Assembly (NCBI GenBank): GCA_021779665.1
Contig: JAJYAG010000008.1
Location: 1 to 64,000, forward strand
DNA from: Bacteroidota bacterium
GTDB taxonomy: Bacteria > Bacteroidota > Bacteroidia > Bacteroidales > JAAUTT01
DNA: 64,000 nt
Direction: 5' to 3'
This document shows positions 45,043-58,841 of this stretch, in pieces (position 1 is the stretch's first letter; each line of letters opens with the position of its first letter). The translations under genes and the position numbers were made by a program. Below the pieces are notes generated by a model. The model had not been told where the DNA came from, made no database searches, and worked only from the letters and a program-made list of their open reading frames with translations.

Positions 45043-45537
45043 ATGAAGTTTGGTATTTACTCTTTGATGGCTGTTATTTTCATGATTTCCTGTGCCAAGG
45101 ATGAAAACGATGTTTCCACTGTTGTGATTAACGAATTAATGGCTGTAAATACCCACACAGTAAAGGATCAGAATAACCAATACGACGATTGGATTGAACT
45201 TTACAATAACTCTTCGGGTGATGTTGACCTGTCAGGGTTTTTCCTGTCCGATAGCCGCAACAATCTTAAAAAATGGACATTCCCATCAGGAACAAGCATT
45301 GCAGGAAAATCATTTCTAATTGTTTGGGCCGATAAAGATACACTTCAGCCTGGATTACACACGAACTTTAAACTCACCGCGGCTGGCGAAAAAGTTTATC
45401 TGGTAACCCCCGATCTTGAGATCTGGGATAAAGTTGAATATGATGAGCAGACTTCCGAAGTTTCATATTCCCGCAGTCCTAATGGAGTTGGTGAATTCAA
45501 ATGGCAAATGCCAACTTTCAATGAAAAGAATAATTAA
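45043..45537 (+). CDS. Lamin-tail domain (LTD) lipoprotein
   Basis: A 164-residue lipoprotein (signal ending FMISCAKDE). The mature part is one LTD domain: VVINELMAVNTHTVKDQNNQ, YDDWIELYNNSSGDVDLSGF, KKWTFPSGTSIAGKSFLIVW, then KLTAAGEKVYLV and SYSRSPNGVGEF. LTD modules in bacteria bind calcium or other ligands in surface or extracellular proteins, often attached to nucleases or phytases. Here the domain stands alone. Its stop overlaps the convergent toxin gene's stop by four bases. Function unknown. Confidence 0.85.
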   Translation: MKFGIYSLMAVIFMISCAKDENDVSTVVINELMAVNTHTVKDQNNQYDDWIELYNNSSGDVDLSGFFLSDSRNNLKKWTFPSGTSIAGKSFLIVWADKDTLQPGLHTNFKLTAAGEKVYLVTPDLEIWDKVEYDEQTSEVSYSRSPNGVGEFKWQMPTFNEKNN

Positions 45538-50729: not shown

Positions 50730-52607
50730 TTAATTCTTCTGGTAGCATCTCACCCAGTCAATCTCGAGATTGCTTGGTAACGACATACTTCCATCCTCAT
50801 ATTTCCCCGAATTTAATACCAGGTAAAGTTCATCCTCCGGTACGCCGACGGTTTGTTCTTTAACTACCAGGTTATTGATTTTCCATACCAGTTTATCGGG
50901 AGTCCATTCCAGCGAATAAATGAAATATCCTTTCGTAAACGTGGATGCTGATATAGAGGCGGTGTCGTTATTTGATGCACTTTCTCCCGAGTTGTCTTTC
51001 CAAAAAGAGCTGAAATGCAGCTTGTTATTGCTGTATTTAAAAACATCAATCTGAGGTAATATTGTGTTTCCTCCTAACCAGAATGCATGGATGATGCCCT
51101 GAGACGCAGGTATTCTGACTTTGGCTTCTACGCGGCCATATTTTTGCCGGTGGCTCTTTCCTGTCGATATTAGTCCCGACGAATAATCAAATTCTTTAGG
51201 ATAAAATCCAAGCATCGGATTCCATTCTTTCCCGGTCACCTTATTCTGACGGGTAACCAGCTTAACAGTCGATCCATTCATTTCGATGTTTTTGTCGGTA
51301 AAGAAATGTTTCTCACCCGGCAGCGCATACGATTCACCCATCAATACCTCGCCCCAGAAATAGCGTGTGATCCATTTTTCACCATCTAGTTTTCCTTTGT
51401 CGAAATGATCCTCAAACACCAGATTCCATTCTCTCAGATCTTTAAACTTCGGATCGTCTTTAATTTTAAAATACCAAACCAGATGTTGCGATTTTTTCAG
51501 TTGTTCGTATTCGGCTTCTTTTTTAGCTTCATCGGTCTTTTCCCACTTTTTGGGATCGAGCAGGTAATTTTTCTGGGTTTTGAATTCTTCAGAGTTTACA
51601 TATGTTTGCAACTCTTCGTAATGCGTAATTTCTTTGGAGTTCTCTAAGTGCTTGAAATGAGCCAGCTGCTTCGATTGGTGAACTTTAAAATATTTGCTGA
51701 TCTGAGACGATTTTTCAAGCGCTTTATATTTCTGCAACTTTTGATATTCAGGGGTGTTTTCGAACTTTTGAGATTCTATTTCTTTTTTTCGGCTTTTAAA
51801 AGCTTCCGATTCAACTGTCTTCTTCAAATCAAGAAAATAGTTCAGCTCTTCTGAGTTATTTATCTTTTTATAGTCGTTGTAAAGCGACGACGAATGCATT
51901 TTGAAATAAGTCTTGAATCTGGAGCTATTCTTGAGTGAACTAAATTCATTAAGTTTTGCAAAAGCTTCCGATTTTTTGAATTCCTTACCTGCCTTTGCCT
52001 GAGCAAACTCCGGAGAGTGAATATATTTGTCCAGCTCTTTAAATTTTAGCAGATCGGGAGATTGGTGAACTTCAATAAATGTTTGAAACTTTGGAGAGTT
52101 TATAAATTTGAAATAATTTTTGAAGGCCGGGTTTTGGCTTATGGAGTTATATTCGTTAAGTTGCTTGAATTCCGGAGTTTTCTCGAACTTTTTCTTGTCG
52201 TTCATGTAATCGAACACCGTTTTGTAGGCTTCCGACGAAATAAAACTTTTTAACGACTTAAATTCAGCCAGTTCGGGCGAAGAGGCTGTTTTGTTGTATT
52301 CAGCCAGATCGGGTGAGCTTTTGTATTTATAGAAGAATTTAATATCCCCCATTTTTTTCAACCGGAGATATTCCTGTTCTTTCAGATGTTCTTCACTGCC
52401 TTTGTAATTGAGGTTCTGAAGAGTTTTTTTCTTCTCGAGGAACTCAGGCGACTGGACAAGGTAATGCAGAAATTTGAAATGCGCTAATTCATTAGAAGCT
52501 TCAATCTCCTTCACTTTATTGAATTCGGCAATCAGGTTTTGTCTTTTTGCTTCAATTGCGTCGGTTTTGGGGTAAAAACCTAGCATAAAACGAAATGCTC
52601 CGGCCAT
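50730..52607 (-). CDS. Five-repeat helical protein fused to a GH16-like domain lacking both catalytic glutamates
   Basis: A 625-residue protein without a visible signal peptide. Residues about 37-395 hold five tandem units of about 72 residues, each starting near S(P/E)ELxxFxxL, with a middle xTPEFxxLxxY and an end FKxYFKxHxS; the composition is rich in Lys, Phe, Tyr and Ser and looks helical. Residues about 396-625 are a GH16 jellyroll: FEDHFDKGKLDGEKW, YSSGLISTGKSHRQKYGRVE, AFWLGG, YSLEWTPDKLVWKIN and the ending LEIDWVRCYQKN. The GH16 active-site motif ExDxxE reads Q519-I-D521-V-F-K524, so nucleophile and acid/base are both lost (codons CAG and AAA). A glycan-binding or scaffold role is more likely than catalysis. 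The repeats match no family I know. Confidence 0.8.
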   Translation of the reverse strand: MAGAFRFMLGFYPKTDAIEAKRQNLIAEFNKVKEIEASNELAHFKFLHYLVQSPEFLEKKKTLQNLNYKGSEEHLKEQEYLRLKKMGDIKFFYKYKSSPDLAEYNKTASSPELAEFKSLKSFISSEAYKTVFDYMNDKKKFEKTPEFKQLNEYNSISQNPAFKNYFKFINSPKFQTFIEVHQSPDLLKFKELDKYIHSPEFAQAKAGKEFKKSEAFAKLNEFSSLKNSSRFKTYFKMHSSSLYNDYKKINNSEELNYFLDLKKTVESEAFKSRKKEIESQKFENTPEYQKLQKYKALEKSSQISKYFKVHQSKQLAHFKHLENSKEITHYEELQTYVNSEEFKTQKNYLLDPKKWEKTDEAKKEAEYEQLKKSQHLVWYFKIKDDPKFKDLREWNLVFEDHFDKGKLDGEKWITRYFWGEVLMGESYALPGEKHFFTDKNIEMNGSTVKLVTRQNKVTGKEWNPMLGFYPKEFDYSSGLISTGKSHRQKYGRVEAKVRIPASQGIIHAFWLGGNTILPQIDVFKYSNNKLHFSSFWKDNSGESASNNDTASISASTFTKGYFIYSLEWTPDKLVWKINNLVVKEQTVGVPEDELYLVLNSGKYEDGSMSLPSNLEIDWVRCYQKN

Positions 52608-52791
52608 GGCAGTAAATTAAAAATCTAATTAAAGTTAAAAACTTTTGAATAAAACATCCAAGTATACGGCAATAAATAGTTGTGGTTTTAGAATTTGGGG
52701 AAAATGTTTTGGCATAGAGATAATTTGTGAGCTTCAAAAAAAATGGTTTGCGTTCAAAAACACAAACCATTCAAAAAGAGTTCAGTTTATT

Positions 52792-54396
52792 TTATTTTAC
52801 TCGGAATCCTGAAAAATACCCGGTAGCAACATATGCTGTAATTCCTGAAGTATTAGTTGCTTTTATTGTAACCTTTTCGCCAGCTTGTAAATTCAATAAC
52901 ATGCTGTGAGAAATAGATTGGCCAAAGCCTTCAAATGATCTAATTGAAGTATTGGTACCCCCATTGTCCTTATAAACTTTCACTATTAAAGTTCCTTGGA
53001 AAACTAATGTAAAGCTTAGACTAAAAACGCCACTAACCGGCGCAATGAAAGCGTTATTATCTAAAATAGATCCGAAATCAAATTCTTCATTCCAAGTAAT
53101 TAATGTCTCTGCCGATCCTCCTGGAAGAGGCTGACCTGCTAAATTGTTGCTGCTAAATCCTGACCAGGTCATATTGATCATATCTGAAACATCAATATTG
53201 TTACCGCCAGATATTTCTAAATTATTCCCTGTCCTTGATAAAGTTTGCTTGTCAGTATCATCCAGATATTTTGAAAGATCAATGTTAGTGGCTGAAGTAT
53301 TGCCTGTAATTTTTAGCGTATTACCTGTTAATGTTAAATCCTGGAGCTCATTTACATTGCTGGTGTCAATTGGTATAGCCCTCCCGTTTGGTGCATTGCT
53401 CAGTACTAATGCGCCGTTTACCTTGGAAAGCGTTTGTAATTCATTGGTTTCGCTTGCATCAACAGTTACTTCGCCTCCTGATTTACTTAAAGCAATTTTA
53501 TTGCCGTTAAGAGAAAGTGTCTGTATCTCATTTATATTGCTGGTATCAACACTTACTTCTCCACCATTTCGGCTGAGAATGATTTTACTTTCGGAACGGC
53601 TTATCTTTTGGATCTCATTAACATTGCTTGTGTCTACCTGTACCTCATTTCCGCCAGAAATCTGCAGTTTACTTGTGGAACTTATCTGCAGGGTTTGTTT
53701 ATAAGGACTAAGGTCAACCACGGTGGAGTCTTTATTGCCGGTAATCCAAAGTTTGTTGTTCAGGGTTCGCAGATCCTGCGGACTATGGGCAAACTGGCGC
53801 AAATCTACAATGCCGGGTTTCCCACTAATGGAAAGGTGGTAATTGGCAGCATCGTATTCGAGATTTTGGCTAAGGCTGGAAAGATTAGCCAGTATGGTAC
53901 CATCATTTTTTAATGTATTGGAAGTAGCATCAAAAGTAAACTTTGAAAAATCAGGAGTAGCTACTCCTGCTCTGGAGGCATATAGTGCATAGGGAACCGA
54001 TACGATTTGAGTTGTGCCAAAATGAATTTTAGATTCTCTGTCAATTCCAATTTCAACTTTTAAATAATAAGGGCCATTTCCCCAATTTATGTGATGCAAA
54101 CTATCAATATTATTAGTTACAAGGTTCTTGGATGTGCCAATTCTAAAGGTAACCAAGCCTAAATTCGATGAAGTCGTGTTTTGTTCTTCTTTCCAGACTG
54201 GCGATCCTGTTTCATTTTTATGTAGGATGCTGAAAGTTGCCTGTATTGGTTTTTGATTTACCGGGTTACCATCATTGTCCCTAATGATAGCTTGATAATT
54301 GATAAAATTCTGAGCAGATGTAGATAGATTGAATGTTAAACAAATGAAGATAACGGTAAATACCCAAATCGTTTGTTTTTTTTTCGGAATCATCAT
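52792..54396 (-). CDS. Fibre-like surface protein with short beta repeats and C1q/TNF-like end, cassette copy 2
   Basis: A 534-residue exported protein (signal ending STSAQ; starts at 54393 and 54417 are also possible). The N-terminal module (about 20-150; FINYQAIIRDNDGNP, LGLVTFRIGTSKN, VSVPYALYAS) is homologous to that of the 40209-42140 protein. Next come about seven short repeats of roughly 28-31 residues with GGEVSVDTSNINEIQTLS-like units, then a compact C-terminal beta domain (about 400-534) resembling C1q/TNF-like trimeric heads (FIAPVSGVFSLSFTLVFQGT). Such architecture usually forms trimeric fibres. It is about 17-41 bases downstream of the T9SS protein gene. Confidence 0.75.
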   Translation of the reverse strand: MMIPKKKQTIWVFTVIFICLTFNLSTSAQNFINYQAIIRDNDGNPVNQKPIQATFSILHKNETGSPVWKEEQNTTSSNLGLVTFRIGTSKNLVTNNIDSLHHINWGNGPYYLKVEIGIDRESKIHFGTTQIVSVPYALYASRAGVATPDFSKFTFDATSNTLKNDGTILANLSSLSQNLEYDAANYHLSISGKPGIVDLRQFAHSPQDLRTLNNKLWITGNKDSTVVDLSPYKQTLQISSTSKLQISGGNEVQVDTSNVNEIQKISRSESKIILSRNGGEVSVDTSNINEIQTLSLNGNKIALSKSGGEVTVDASETNELQTLSKVNGALVLSNAPNGRAIPIDTSNVNELQDLTLTGNTLKITGNTSATNIDLSKYLDDTDKQTLSRTGNNLEISGGNNIDVSDMINMTWSGFSSNNLAGQPLPGGSAETLITWNEEFDFGSILDNNAFIAPVSGVFSLSFTLVFQGTLIVKVYKDNGGTNTSIRSFEGFGQSISHSMLLNLQAGEKVTIKATNTSGITAYVATGYFSGFRVK

Positions 54397-54433
54397 TGTA
54401 GATAGTTTATATATCATCTATTAAAAGATATCG

Positions 54434-54928
54434 TTACATTTTAATAATTTTAAATTTACTATAAAGCTTTGCATCATCGGAATAGATGTTGATAAAGTAA
54501 AGTCCTTTTGGAAATCTTTCCATGTCAAATTCTACTTTTTGACCTGAAGTTATTCCTAAAAGTCTTTTTTGATAAACTTTGCTTCCTTTTAAGTTATAAA
54601 TATCTATAGTAAAATCGTTAATGCCTATATCAATAAAATACAGTTTCAAAATATCCTGCACCGGATTGGGGAATGCTTTAATATCTGGAATGCAACCTTC
54701 GCAAAATCCCGAATCTTCTCCGTAATATTGCTGAAAGCCTTGGGTTAGCTTATAACCTCCGTTAGCTTCATAATTTACCATTAACTCGCCAACAGAATAA
54801 GAAATGGAATATCCGGATTTTGTTTCAAAAAAACCTGTAGTACCCAAAAGAGTCGGGTCCTTTGTTTGAGTCAATGCCCATGGGCAAAGTAACAAGAGTA
54901 GTAAGTAAGTCAGGCCTACGGTTTTCAC
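54434..54928 (-). CDS. T9SS type A sorting-domain protein, cassette copy 2
   Basis: A 164-residue exported protein (signal ending PWALTQ). The small domain has KSGYSISYSVGELMVNYEAN and YKLTQGFQQYYG (about 35-70), matching SVGQ..YEAKGYILRQGF of cassette copy 1. The type IX sorting domain (about 82-164) has IKAFPNPVQDILKLYFID, IYNLKGSKVYQKRLL, FPKGLYFINIYS and a basic end FKIIKM. Two Cys in FCEGCIPD link the two parts. It is encoded directly before the fibre-like gene, as in copy 1. Confidence 0.85.
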   Translation of the reverse strand: MKTVGLTYLLLLLLCPWALTQTKDPTLLGTTGFFETKSGYSISYSVGELMVNYEANGGYKLTQGFQQYYGEDSGFCEGCIPDIKAFPNPVQDILKLYFIDIGINDFTIDIYNLKGSKVYQKRLLGITSGQKVEFDMERFPKGLYFINIYSDDAKLYSKFKIIKM

Positions 54929-55207: not shown

Positions 55208-56749
<1,542 letters not shown>

Positions 56750-56756
56750 TATTTTT

Positions 56757-56844
56757 AGAAGAGGTTGTCCGGAGAGAGAGGGATTGTGAAAAAACCAGTC
56801 CTTGTAAAATGTCAGATATTTTACGCTTTTTGGACAACTTCTTT
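56757..56844 (+). repeat. Hairpin element between atpD and atpC
   Basis: The 121-base gap between atpD and atpC holds a long inverted repeat. GAAGAGGTTGTCC (56758-56770) matches the complement of GGACAACTTCTTT (56832-56844) at 11 of 13 positions. Inside is a smaller GTAAAAT/ATTTTAC hairpin (56802-56823). The outer arms look like ends of a small repeat or MITE, although I see no clear target duplication. If transcribed it would lower or separate atpC expression from atpD. Confidence 0.6.
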
Positions 56845-56870
56845 GTTTTAATAAAGAAATATCAATACGC

Positions 56871-57119
56871 ATGTTTTTAGAAATTTTAACACCAGAAAAA
56901 AAGCTGTTCTCGGGTGAAACCAAACTCATAAAAGTTCCTGGTTCCGAAGGTTCTTTCGAATTAATGAATAAACATGCTCCTATAATTTCGAGTCTTGCGG
57001 AAGGTCCCATTAAAATTGTTACGCCTGATGATCAGTCGCAGCATTTTAATGTAAGTGGTGGGGTTTTGGAAATGAAGGATAATAAGGTTATTATTTTAGT
57101 GGAAAAGTTGCTCAGCTAA
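56871..57119 (+). CDS. atpC: F1F0 ATP synthase subunit epsilon (short form)
   Basis: An 82-residue epsilon subunit: MFLEILTPEKKLFSGETKLI, VPGSEGSFELMNKHAPIISS and HFNVSGGVLEMKDNKVIILV form the N-terminal beta-sandwich. The C-terminal two-helix domain that inhibits ATPase in E. coli (139 residues in all) is absent. The short form is usual in this phylum. It lies 121 bases after atpD, with a hairpin element between, and 10 bases before the alpha/beta hydrolase gene. Confidence 0.95.
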   Translation: MFLEILTPEKKLFSGETKLIKVPGSEGSFELMNKHAPIISSLAEGPIKIVTPDDQSQHFNVSGGVLEMKDNKVIILVEKLLS

Positions 57120-57129
57120 ATATTTGGTT

Positions 57130-57858
57130 ATGCGTGTGCTACTTTTTCTGATTTGTTTTTTAATAAGCGTGAAAGTTACAGCACAACATAGTATTACTTT
57201 TCCTTCGGCCGATAATATATTGATCACCGCCGATCAATATCTCAATGATAAGGATTTACCATATATCATCTTATTTCATCAGGCTAATTCCAGCCGCGGA
57301 GAATTCCATGAAATAGCACCCAAACTTACCCGGCTCGGATATAATTGTTTAGCCGTAGACCTTCGCTCAGGGAAAGAAATCAATTACATTCAGAACGAAA
57401 CAGCCACAAGAGCAGCAGAGCAAAGACTTCCCACCGGATATCTCGATGCAGAGAAGGATATTATTGCGTCAATCGAATACATAAAGGAAATTTCACCCAA
57501 AAAAATAATTCTTCTCGGAAGTTCATATTCAGCTTCACTGGTTATGAAAGTTGGTAATCACAACCCCGATGTTGAAGCTGTGGTTGCTTTTAGTCCCGGT
57601 GAATATTTTCAGCCTAAGTTGATTCTGAAGAGTTTTCTTAATGAGTATGATAAACCTCTGTTTATTGCCTCCACCGTTAATGAAAAGCCCTTTGTGTATG
57701 ACCTTATTGCTGAAATTCCAGAAGAATTGGTGAATTTTTTCGTACCCGAAACCGGCGAGGGAACGCACGGCGCCAAGGCTCTCTGGGAGAAACAGCCACA
57801 AAATGAAGAAGTTTGGCTGTCGTTAATGTTGTTTTTTAAGAAAATTGCACAGGAATAG
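57130..57858 (+). CDS. Exported alpha/beta-hydrolase
   Basis: A 242-residue protein with a signal peptide ending KVTAQ and an alpha/beta-hydrolase fold. PYIILFHQANSSRGEFHEIA gives the oxyanion loop, ILLGSSYSASLVMKV the nucleophile Ser in GSSYSA, and a Gly-Thr-His in TGEGTHGAKAL the catalytic His. It resembles periplasmic dienelactone-hydrolase or esterase-like proteins. ATG 57130 is used rather than a TTG at 57124. It shares one base with the heptosyltransferase start, so both belong to the atpDC transcript or to a nested one. Confidence 0.8.
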   Translation: MRVLLFLICFLISVKVTAQHSITFPSADNILITADQYLNDKDLPYIILFHQANSSRGEFHEIAPKLTRLGYNCLAVDLRSGKEINYIQNETATRAAEQRLPTGYLDAEKDIIASIEYIKEISPKKIILLGSSYSASLVMKVGNHNPDVEAVVAFSPGEYFQPKLILKSFLNEYDKPLFIASTVNEKPFVYDLIAEIPEELVNFFVPETGEGTHGAKALWEKQPQNEEVWLSLMLFFKKIAQE

Positions 57859-58841
57859 TGGTTAAATTTCTTATCATACGATTCAGTTCTATAGGAGATA
57901 TTGTCCTTACAACGCCGGTTATCCGTAATTTAAAGACTCAGATTGAAGGAGCAGAAATTCACTACCTTACTAAAAAGGCGTTTGCCCCTGTTCTTCAGGA
58001 AAATCCCTATATTCATAAAATCCATCTGTACGACAATAATCTGAAGGAAATTATTAGCGACCTCAAGAAGGTTGATTTTGATTTTATTATCGATTTGCAT
58101 AATAATCTCAGGAGTTCCCGCGTAAAGCTTTCCTTGAACAAAGTTTCCTATTCATTTCCGAAGCTTAACCTGGAAAAGTGGCTGATGGTTAATCTGAAGA
58201 TAAATAAACTGCCTGATGTTCATATTGTCGAGAGATACATGAGTACTCTCAATCTGTTCAATATAAAGAATGACAAACGCGGGCTGGATTTCTTTATAAG
58301 CGCCGATAACGAAATGAACACGCGCCTTTTGCCTGAAACTTTTCATCGGGGCTACATTTCGGTTGTTATTGGGGCAAAACATAATACAAAACAGTTACCA
58401 CTAACCAGACTTATTGAACTGATAAGAAACCTGAATTTCCCAGTTATTTTGTTAGGTGGAAAAGATGATGCTGAACGGGGTGAAAGTATATCGAACGCCA
58501 TTGGAGAAACCTGTCTGAATTTTTGTGGAAAGCTTTCCATACAGCAGTCTGCATCGTATCTGAAACAATCCAAATTAGTGATTACACACGATACAGGTCT
58601 GATGCATATTGCTTCGGCGTTTGGAAAAACGATTTTGTCAGTTTGGGGAAATACAATTCCGGAATTTGGTATGTATCCTTATTTGCCTGGCGAAAATTCA
58701 GAGATTTTCCAGGTCAAAAATCTTAAATGCCGACCGTGTTCCAAGATTGGTTATGAAAAATGCCCGCTCAAACATTTTAATTGCATGAATCAAATAGAGC
58801 TGGATGCGTTGGCAACCAAAGCGAAACAAATTTTAAATTAA
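57858..58841 (+). CDS. Glycosyltransferase family 9 (heptosyltransferase-like)
   Basis: A 327-residue cytoplasmic GT-B enzyme that would add heptose or a related sugar to the lipopolysaccharide core from an ADP-sugar. ILIRFSSIGDIVLTTPVIRN (given as the N-terminal start region), the mid DFIIDLHNNLRSSRVKLSLN, VILLGGKDDAERGESI, LVITHDTGLMHIASAFGKTI and the Cys-rich LKCRPCSKIGYEKCPLK are the GT9 signature. It starts with GTG at 57858, overlapping the preceding TAG by one base. Confidence 0.92.
   Translation: MVKFLIIRFSSIGDIVLTTPVIRNLKTQIEGAEIHYLTKKAFAPVLQENPYIHKIHLYDNNLKEIISDLKKVDFDFIIDLHNNLRSSRVKLSLNKVSYSFPKLNLEKWLMVNLKINKLPDVHIVERYMSTLNLFNIKNDKRGLDFFISADNEMNTRLLPETFHRGYISVVIGAKHNTKQLPLTRLIELIRNLNFPVILLGGKDDAERGESISNAIGETCLNFCGKLSIQQSASYLKQSKLVITHDTGLMHIASAFGKTILSVWGNTIPEFGMYPYLPGENSEIFQVKNLKCRPCSKIGYEKCPLKHFNCMNQIELDALATKAKQILN

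Follow-up and report, generated by a model that had tools for sequence, protein, structure and literature searches.

The window analysed here, a stretch of 64,000 nucleotides, contains on its minus strand a gene for a 625-residue protein at 50730 to 52607, with its ATG start at 52607 and its stop codon at 50730 to 50732. Upstream of the ATG, the reading frame stays open for only three more codons, and no signal peptide has therefore been overlooked. A terminator-like hairpin with 14 pairs followed by a T run (52741 to 52772, minus strand) lies between this gene and a co-directional upstream gene. Based on family alignments, an HMM for the repeat unit, and structure models, we divided the protein into four parts, all encoded on the minus strand: an N-terminal peptide (residues 1 to 14; 52566 to 52607), distinguished by its conservation in the alignment, its charge, and a low pLDDT; a helical cap with the near-invariant residues E19 and S38 (residues 15 to 39; 52491 to 52565), supported by alignment and models; five helical repeat units, which we refer to as the stalk; and a GH16 jelly-roll domain (residues 394 to 624; 50736 to 51428), the head, supported by Pfam, Foldseek, and VIA.

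A helical stalk of variable length

Using the unit HMM together with the helices in the models, we placed unit 1 at residues 40 to 110 (52278 to 52490), unit 2 at 111 to 183 (52059 to 52277), unit 3 at 184 to 252 (51852 to 52058), unit 4 at 253 to 324 (51636 to 51851), and unit 5, which runs into the GH16 domain, at 325 to 396 (51420 to 51635), all on the minus strand. The HMM itself matches residues 40 to 106, 112 to 179, 186 to 249, 254 to 320, and 326 to 394 with E-values of 6e-19 to 3e-24; because it was trained on the GH16-stalk family, these five units included, the E-values show fit and are not independent proof. Autocorrelation of the protein sequence peaks at 12, 24, and 72 to 73 residues, and the repeat unit is modelled as 72 residues forming five short helices. 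The earlier note had described five units of about 72 residues in the N-terminal 360 residues; the number and length of the units hold, but not their placement, as they start after a 39-residue segment. Across the family, the unit HMM detects zero to nine repeats per protein, with modes at three and five, and members are approximately 320 to 900 residues long.

AlphaFold2 modelling of the full chain with 45 family sequences gave a mean pLDDT of 91.6 and a pTM of 0.58, which leaves it unsure how the head is oriented relative to the rod, while the stalk by itself gave a pLDDT of 94.3 and a pTM of 0.70. The full-chain model comprises a low-confidence N-terminal peptide, short helices at residues 15 to 393, and the jelly roll at 394 to 624. 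Profile searches and structure prediction, both proposed in the earlier note, returned no Pfam family and no close PDB fold for the repeats. Specifically, the first 390 residues have no Pfam match, no Pfam repeat model (TPR, HEAT, Sel1, spectrin, and others) matches the repeat at E ≤ 0.01, a threshold that leaves room for distant kinship, and the stalk has no PDB sequence match and, as a model searched against the PDB, zero Foldseek matches at E ≤ 0.001. The best VIA match of the stalk has a Z-score of 8.1 and an rmsd of 10 Å. Weak matches to long coiled-coil structures, including the cytoplasmic domain of a chemoreceptor (2ch7) and the MukB elbow (6h2x), at Z-scores of 7 to 8 and an rmsd of approximately 10 Å, suggest that the helical array forms an elongated rod. 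The likeness is one of elongated shape only; the coiled-coil rods have long arms, whereas the family unit has five short helices. In the sample of genomes from the order, the stalk is always paired with a GH16 head except in ORFs cut by contig ends; a search for the stalk joined to some other head found none there, the stalk-only ORFs being those cut by contig ends.

A GH16 head with a lost catalytic pair and a remodelled cleft

The assignment of the head to GH16, already made in the earlier note, is borne out by sequence and by fold. Pfam Glyco_hydro_16 matches residues 446 to 585 with 43.7 bits against a cut-off of 22, and 45/45 family members match the same model at E ≤ 0.01. The head model superimposes on ZgLamC (4crq) with a VIA Z-score of 26.2 and an rmsd of 1.7 Å over 204 residues, and its Foldseek matches to GH16 laminarinases have E-values of 1e-16 to 2e-17. 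More generally, the head has the same jelly roll as the laminarinases ZgLamC, ZgLamA (4bow), and the Thermotoga enzyme (3azx and 4dfs), with Z-scores of about 25 to 26. The NCBIfam model NF052454 (EglC, endo-1,3-1,4-beta-glycanase) scores 60 bits over residues 395 to 623 against a cut-off of 700, and the protein is thus not a member of that family.

The catalytic ExDxxE motif reads QIDVFK at residues 519 to 524 (51036 to 51053, minus strand), with codon 519 at 51053 to 51051 and codon 524 at 51038 to 51036. When aligned to solved laminarinases, both pairwise and by profile, Q519 falls at the position of the nucleophile and K524 at that of the acid/base, confirming the claim that both catalytic glutamates are replaced; we also looked for the true motif elsewhere in the domain and did not find it. 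Among 74 family members, the nucleophile position is His in 32, Gln in 20, and Glu in 15, and the acid/base position is Lys in 42, Arg in 13, Ser in 5, and Glu in 3. The two glutamates occur together in none of the members examined, and the lack of a complete Glu pair is fixed family-wide. Fifteen of the 74 members, early branches among them, still have Glu as the nucleophile along with the Asp (EDK or EDR); none of the three members with Glu at 524 has Glu at 519, and in two divergent members the motif is gone entirely. Because the EDK/EDR groups branch off early within the family in a midpoint-rooted tree, the acid/base may have been lost before the nucleophile. It is well supported that family members are not beta-glucanases of the usual mechanism.

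The changes extend to the substrate subsites, whose roles we took from residues assigned in ZgLamA and Rv0315 (PMC4606783) and paired with the family by sequence alignment. The first Trp of subsite −1 (Trp-238 equivalent, position 506) is lost, with Y, T, S, V, H, Q, and N as the commonest letters; the −2 Arg (Arg-213 equivalent, position 479) is replaced by L, I, M, V, T, or N, with a hydrophobic residue in nearly all members; and 73/73 members have a deletion of the loop that holds the −2 Trp (Trp-264). The spacer between W510 and the motif has 8 residues in 73/73 members, while in other GH16 domains it has 9 to 27, usually 15 to 16. Among the glucan-subsite residues compared, only the equivalents of Trp-242 and Asn-171 remain: the second Trp of the −1 platform (W510) is kept in 60/73 members, and N440 aligns with the region of the laminarinase −2 Asn. 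The family therefore has the strands, W510, and the N440 region in common with laminarinases but lacks the Glu pair, the first −1 Trp, the −2 Arg, the Trp loop, and a signal peptide, has the shortened spacer, and adds the helical array in front and an insert. This insert, W462 to F473 (WNPMLGFYPKEF; 51189 to 51224, minus strand), is missing from the solved laminarinases in profile alignments. In the family alignment, W412, N440, W462, G467, W575, and N578 never vary where present, and W462 and G467 are invariant in 73/73 members. Without the −1 Trp, the −2 Arg, and the loop of the −2 Trp, the old cleft is, judging from these alignments, unlikely to bind ordinary beta-1,3-glucan. Lost subsites together with newly fixed invariants argue that the head is conserved for a role other than ordinary laminarin handling.

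Distribution, genomic context, and probable location of the family

The family was found in 76/295 sampled Bacteroidales genomes (approximately a quarter), the union of a whole-protein search (74 genomes at E ≤ 1e-30) and a search with the stalk profile (74 genomes). The gene is single-copy and present across dozens of families of the order. Outside the order, no match was found in a phylum-wide sample of 395 genomes or a class-wide sample of 247, which included a few genomes of the same order. Within the genus, full-length relatives with 47 to 64% amino acid identity occur in three of four other genomes. A scan of named contigs gave 80 loci, whose labels are almost always Bacteroidales, Marinilabiliales, or similar; cultured carriers among them include Marinifilum, Labilibaculum, Carboxylicivirga, Marinilabilia, Thermophagus, Alkalitalea, and Perlabentimonas. 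One contig (CAMDBI010000001.1), from a metagenome bin labelled Bacteroides fragilis, encodes a member with seven repeats; sampled genomes of two families of the same order, f60 and f105, lack the gene, and the label may be wrong.

In a midpoint-rooted tree built from 71 heads of the family and 32 further GH16 domains, some of the latter from the same genomes, the family heads form one clade with a support of 100/100 and a stem of 1.23 changes per column. The motif E[IFLM]D[VIM]xE is intact in all but two of the other GH16 domains (one incomplete and one divergent), and most of these proteins have a signal-peptide-like N-terminus. In a comparison with the nearest relative, the stalk has a pN of 0.27 and the GH16 domain one of 0.19, with pS saturated at 0.80 to 0.88. 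Across three genus members, identity is 65 to 80% in the N-terminal 20 residues, 52 to 72% in the GH16 domain, and 42 to 58% in the stalk. Both ends thus evolve more slowly than the stalk, as would suit a spacer linking two functional ends. We also considered an origin in phages or defence systems and rejected it: viral contigs gave only ordinary GH16 relatives, and neither phage records nor PADLOC contained a match to the family.

No neighbour is conserved across the 80 loci, with flanks of up to 8 kb, which argues against a dedicated sugar-use locus. A two-component kinase cluster, ATP synthase genes, a GT9-like glycosyltransferase, and fmt recur, each in a minority of loci and mostly in related lineages. 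A link to an operon or a sugar-use locus was rejected on the same grounds, and in the window the terminator-like hairpin isolates the gene. The Bacteroidota promoter motif TAnnTTTG is found upstream of the gene in 17/79 loci, compared to 9.8 expected from mononucleotide shuffles. In the window, genes for the ATP synthase beta and epsilon subunits, a hydrolase, and a GT9-like glycosyltransferase lie at 55241 to 58841 (plus strand); relatives of these genes are also near the family gene in approximately ten other loci, which suggests that an old stretch of chromosome is shared, not that the genes form an operon. Past the hairpin, the adjoining gene (52792 to 54417, minus strand) encodes a secreted protein in which a degenerate repeat of the form NEIQ.LS..GN.I.LS..GG.V.VDTS occurs several times. 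At 54434 to 54928 (minus strand) lies a gene for a short signal-peptide protein that by eye resembles cargo of the type IX secretion system (T9SS), with the C-terminus FPNPVQD...NIYSDDAKLYSKFKIIKM. A probable lipoprotein encoded at 45043 to 45537 (plus strand) has a putative lamin-tail-like domain (INELMA...WIELYN). Co-occurrence with the T9SS was not informative, as its component GldM, present in 269/295 genomes of the order, is too common to discriminate.

The N-terminal consensus of the family consists of hydrophobic and basic residues followed by [LF]G..P.T and then ..iE, and among 109 members 91% have a positive net charge there and none a negative one. The conserved segment is too short for a classical signal peptide. 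No family N-terminus contains a signal peptide, and no TM-like window was found in 74 members; this extends to the whole family the earlier observation that the protein lacks a signal peptide. The protein is probably cytoplasmic. An amphipathic N-terminal helix was considered and rejected, since the hydrophobic moment is no higher than that of shuffles, and binding to a membrane is thus just one option for the peptide.

As noticed before, the heptapeptide MLGFYPK occurs twice in the protein, at residues 8 to 14 (52566 to 52586, minus strand) and, within the insert, at residues 465 to 471 (51195 to 51215, minus strand). The exact duplication is found only in the species of the window, one relative in the genus having a common hexamer, and a weaker likeness, G..PK, is present in the family consensus at both the N-terminal peptide and the GH16 insert. 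Within-protein likeness of the heptapeptides is 2.17/7 compared to 2.00 for shuffled pairings (83/5,000; relatedness not controlled). Because this barely exceeds the shuffled pairings, we did not adopt the heptapeptide as a maintained echo, although a link between the two segments may exist.

A proposed tether or adaptor and its alternatives

We favour, with a probability of about 0.55, the reading that the protein is a non-catalytic GH16 pseudoenzyme of Bacteroidales, probably cytoplasmic, that works as a tether or adaptor. The N-terminal peptide would dock to a membrane surface or a protein, the helical array would serve as a spacer rod tolerant of changes in length, and the jelly-roll head would bind a partner, either a protein or a non-glucan sugar, via its remodelled site. 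We entertain only tentatively that the family is an undescribed class of intracellular scaffold in which the fold of a secreted glucanase was recruited to the cytoplasm as the head on a length-variable rod of a previously unseen repeat, possibly arranged head-to-tail via the N-terminal G..PK peptide with its likeness to the GH16 insert.

Another possibility, to which we give little weight, is that the protein is a cytoplasmic lectin whose remodelled cleft still binds a carbohydrate, for example a storage glucan or a precursor of the cell envelope, and whose rod links it to other parts of the cell. In insects, the beta-glucan recognition proteins (GNBPs) typically act as secreted immune receptors and carry a distinct glucan-binding domain at the N-terminus. 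They are GH16 homologues and sugar receptors that have lost the catalytic glutamates and are not enzymes (PMC6403176), and together with the purifying selection on the GH16 fold, the invariant aromatic residues, and the position of N440 near the laminarinase −2 Asn, they speak for this reading. The insect proteins and the family have the absence of the catalytic pair in common, but the family is bacterial, lacks a signal peptide, and has a helical array and no second Pfam domain; as Pfam detects GH16 only and the N-terminal part is all helical in the models, a CBM39-type N-terminal glucan-binding domain appears to be absent. Rv0315 of Mycobacterium tuberculosis (4wzf) is likewise an inactive bacterial GH16 protein that has lost −2 and −3 subsite residues, and it fails to bind laminarin (PMC4606783). 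Unlike the family, it keeps its Glu pair (Glu 171 and Glu 176) in an open groove, is secreted with a signal peptide (PMC4606783), and has no stalk. The replaced −1 Trp and −2 Arg, the deletion of the −2 Trp loop in every member aligned, and the lack of linked glycan genes in the 80 loci also weigh against a lectin.

Less probable still is a surface adhesin or glycan-binding protein exported without a standard signal peptide, with the LG..P.T peptide as the export signal. T9SS substrates enter the periplasm by means of a signal peptide and carry, in addition, a C-terminal sorting domain. The conservation of the N-terminal peptide, the extracellular action of ordinary GH16 proteins, and the usual presence of GldM in host genomes are compatible with export. 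However, neither T9SS cargo feature was seen in the protein, the chain stopping at the last GH16 strand (residues 612 to 624); most genomes of the order have GldM with or without the gene; and no export genes adjoin it in the 80 loci.

That the protein is still an enzyme, either with a changed catalytic pair or as a transglycosylase, is very improbable: the EDK/EDR members do keep the nucleophile, but most members have Lys or Arg as the acid/base and His or Gln as the nucleophile, the Glu-524 members and the two members without a motif do not restore the pair, and the substrate subsites are also lost. Finally, a decaying beta-glucanase remnant without function, as the lost catalytic residues alone might suggest, is contradicted by intact frames in >140 homologues, by purifying selection and invariant positions, and by the presence of the gene across dozens of families.

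GH16 pseudoenzymes are a known kind of protein, and what is new is the architecture and the probable location; in the literature searched on GH16 pseudoenzymes in Bacteroidetes, we found no paper describing the family. As a probable non-catalytic tether or adaptor, the family offers a clean and widely conserved bacterial case in which a sugar-cutting enzyme became a non-enzyme and apparently moved inside the cell. The steps are still visible: early branches have a changed acid/base but retain the nucleophile, and elsewhere both positions have drifted. The helical repeat lies outside Pfam coverage, and pipelines that score Pfam Glyco_hydro_16 would call family members beta-glucanases and over-count GH16 enzymes in Bacteroidales. 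With cultured carriers such as Marinifilum, Labilibaculum, Carboxylicivirga, Marinilabilia, and Thermophagus, the function of the family is testable.
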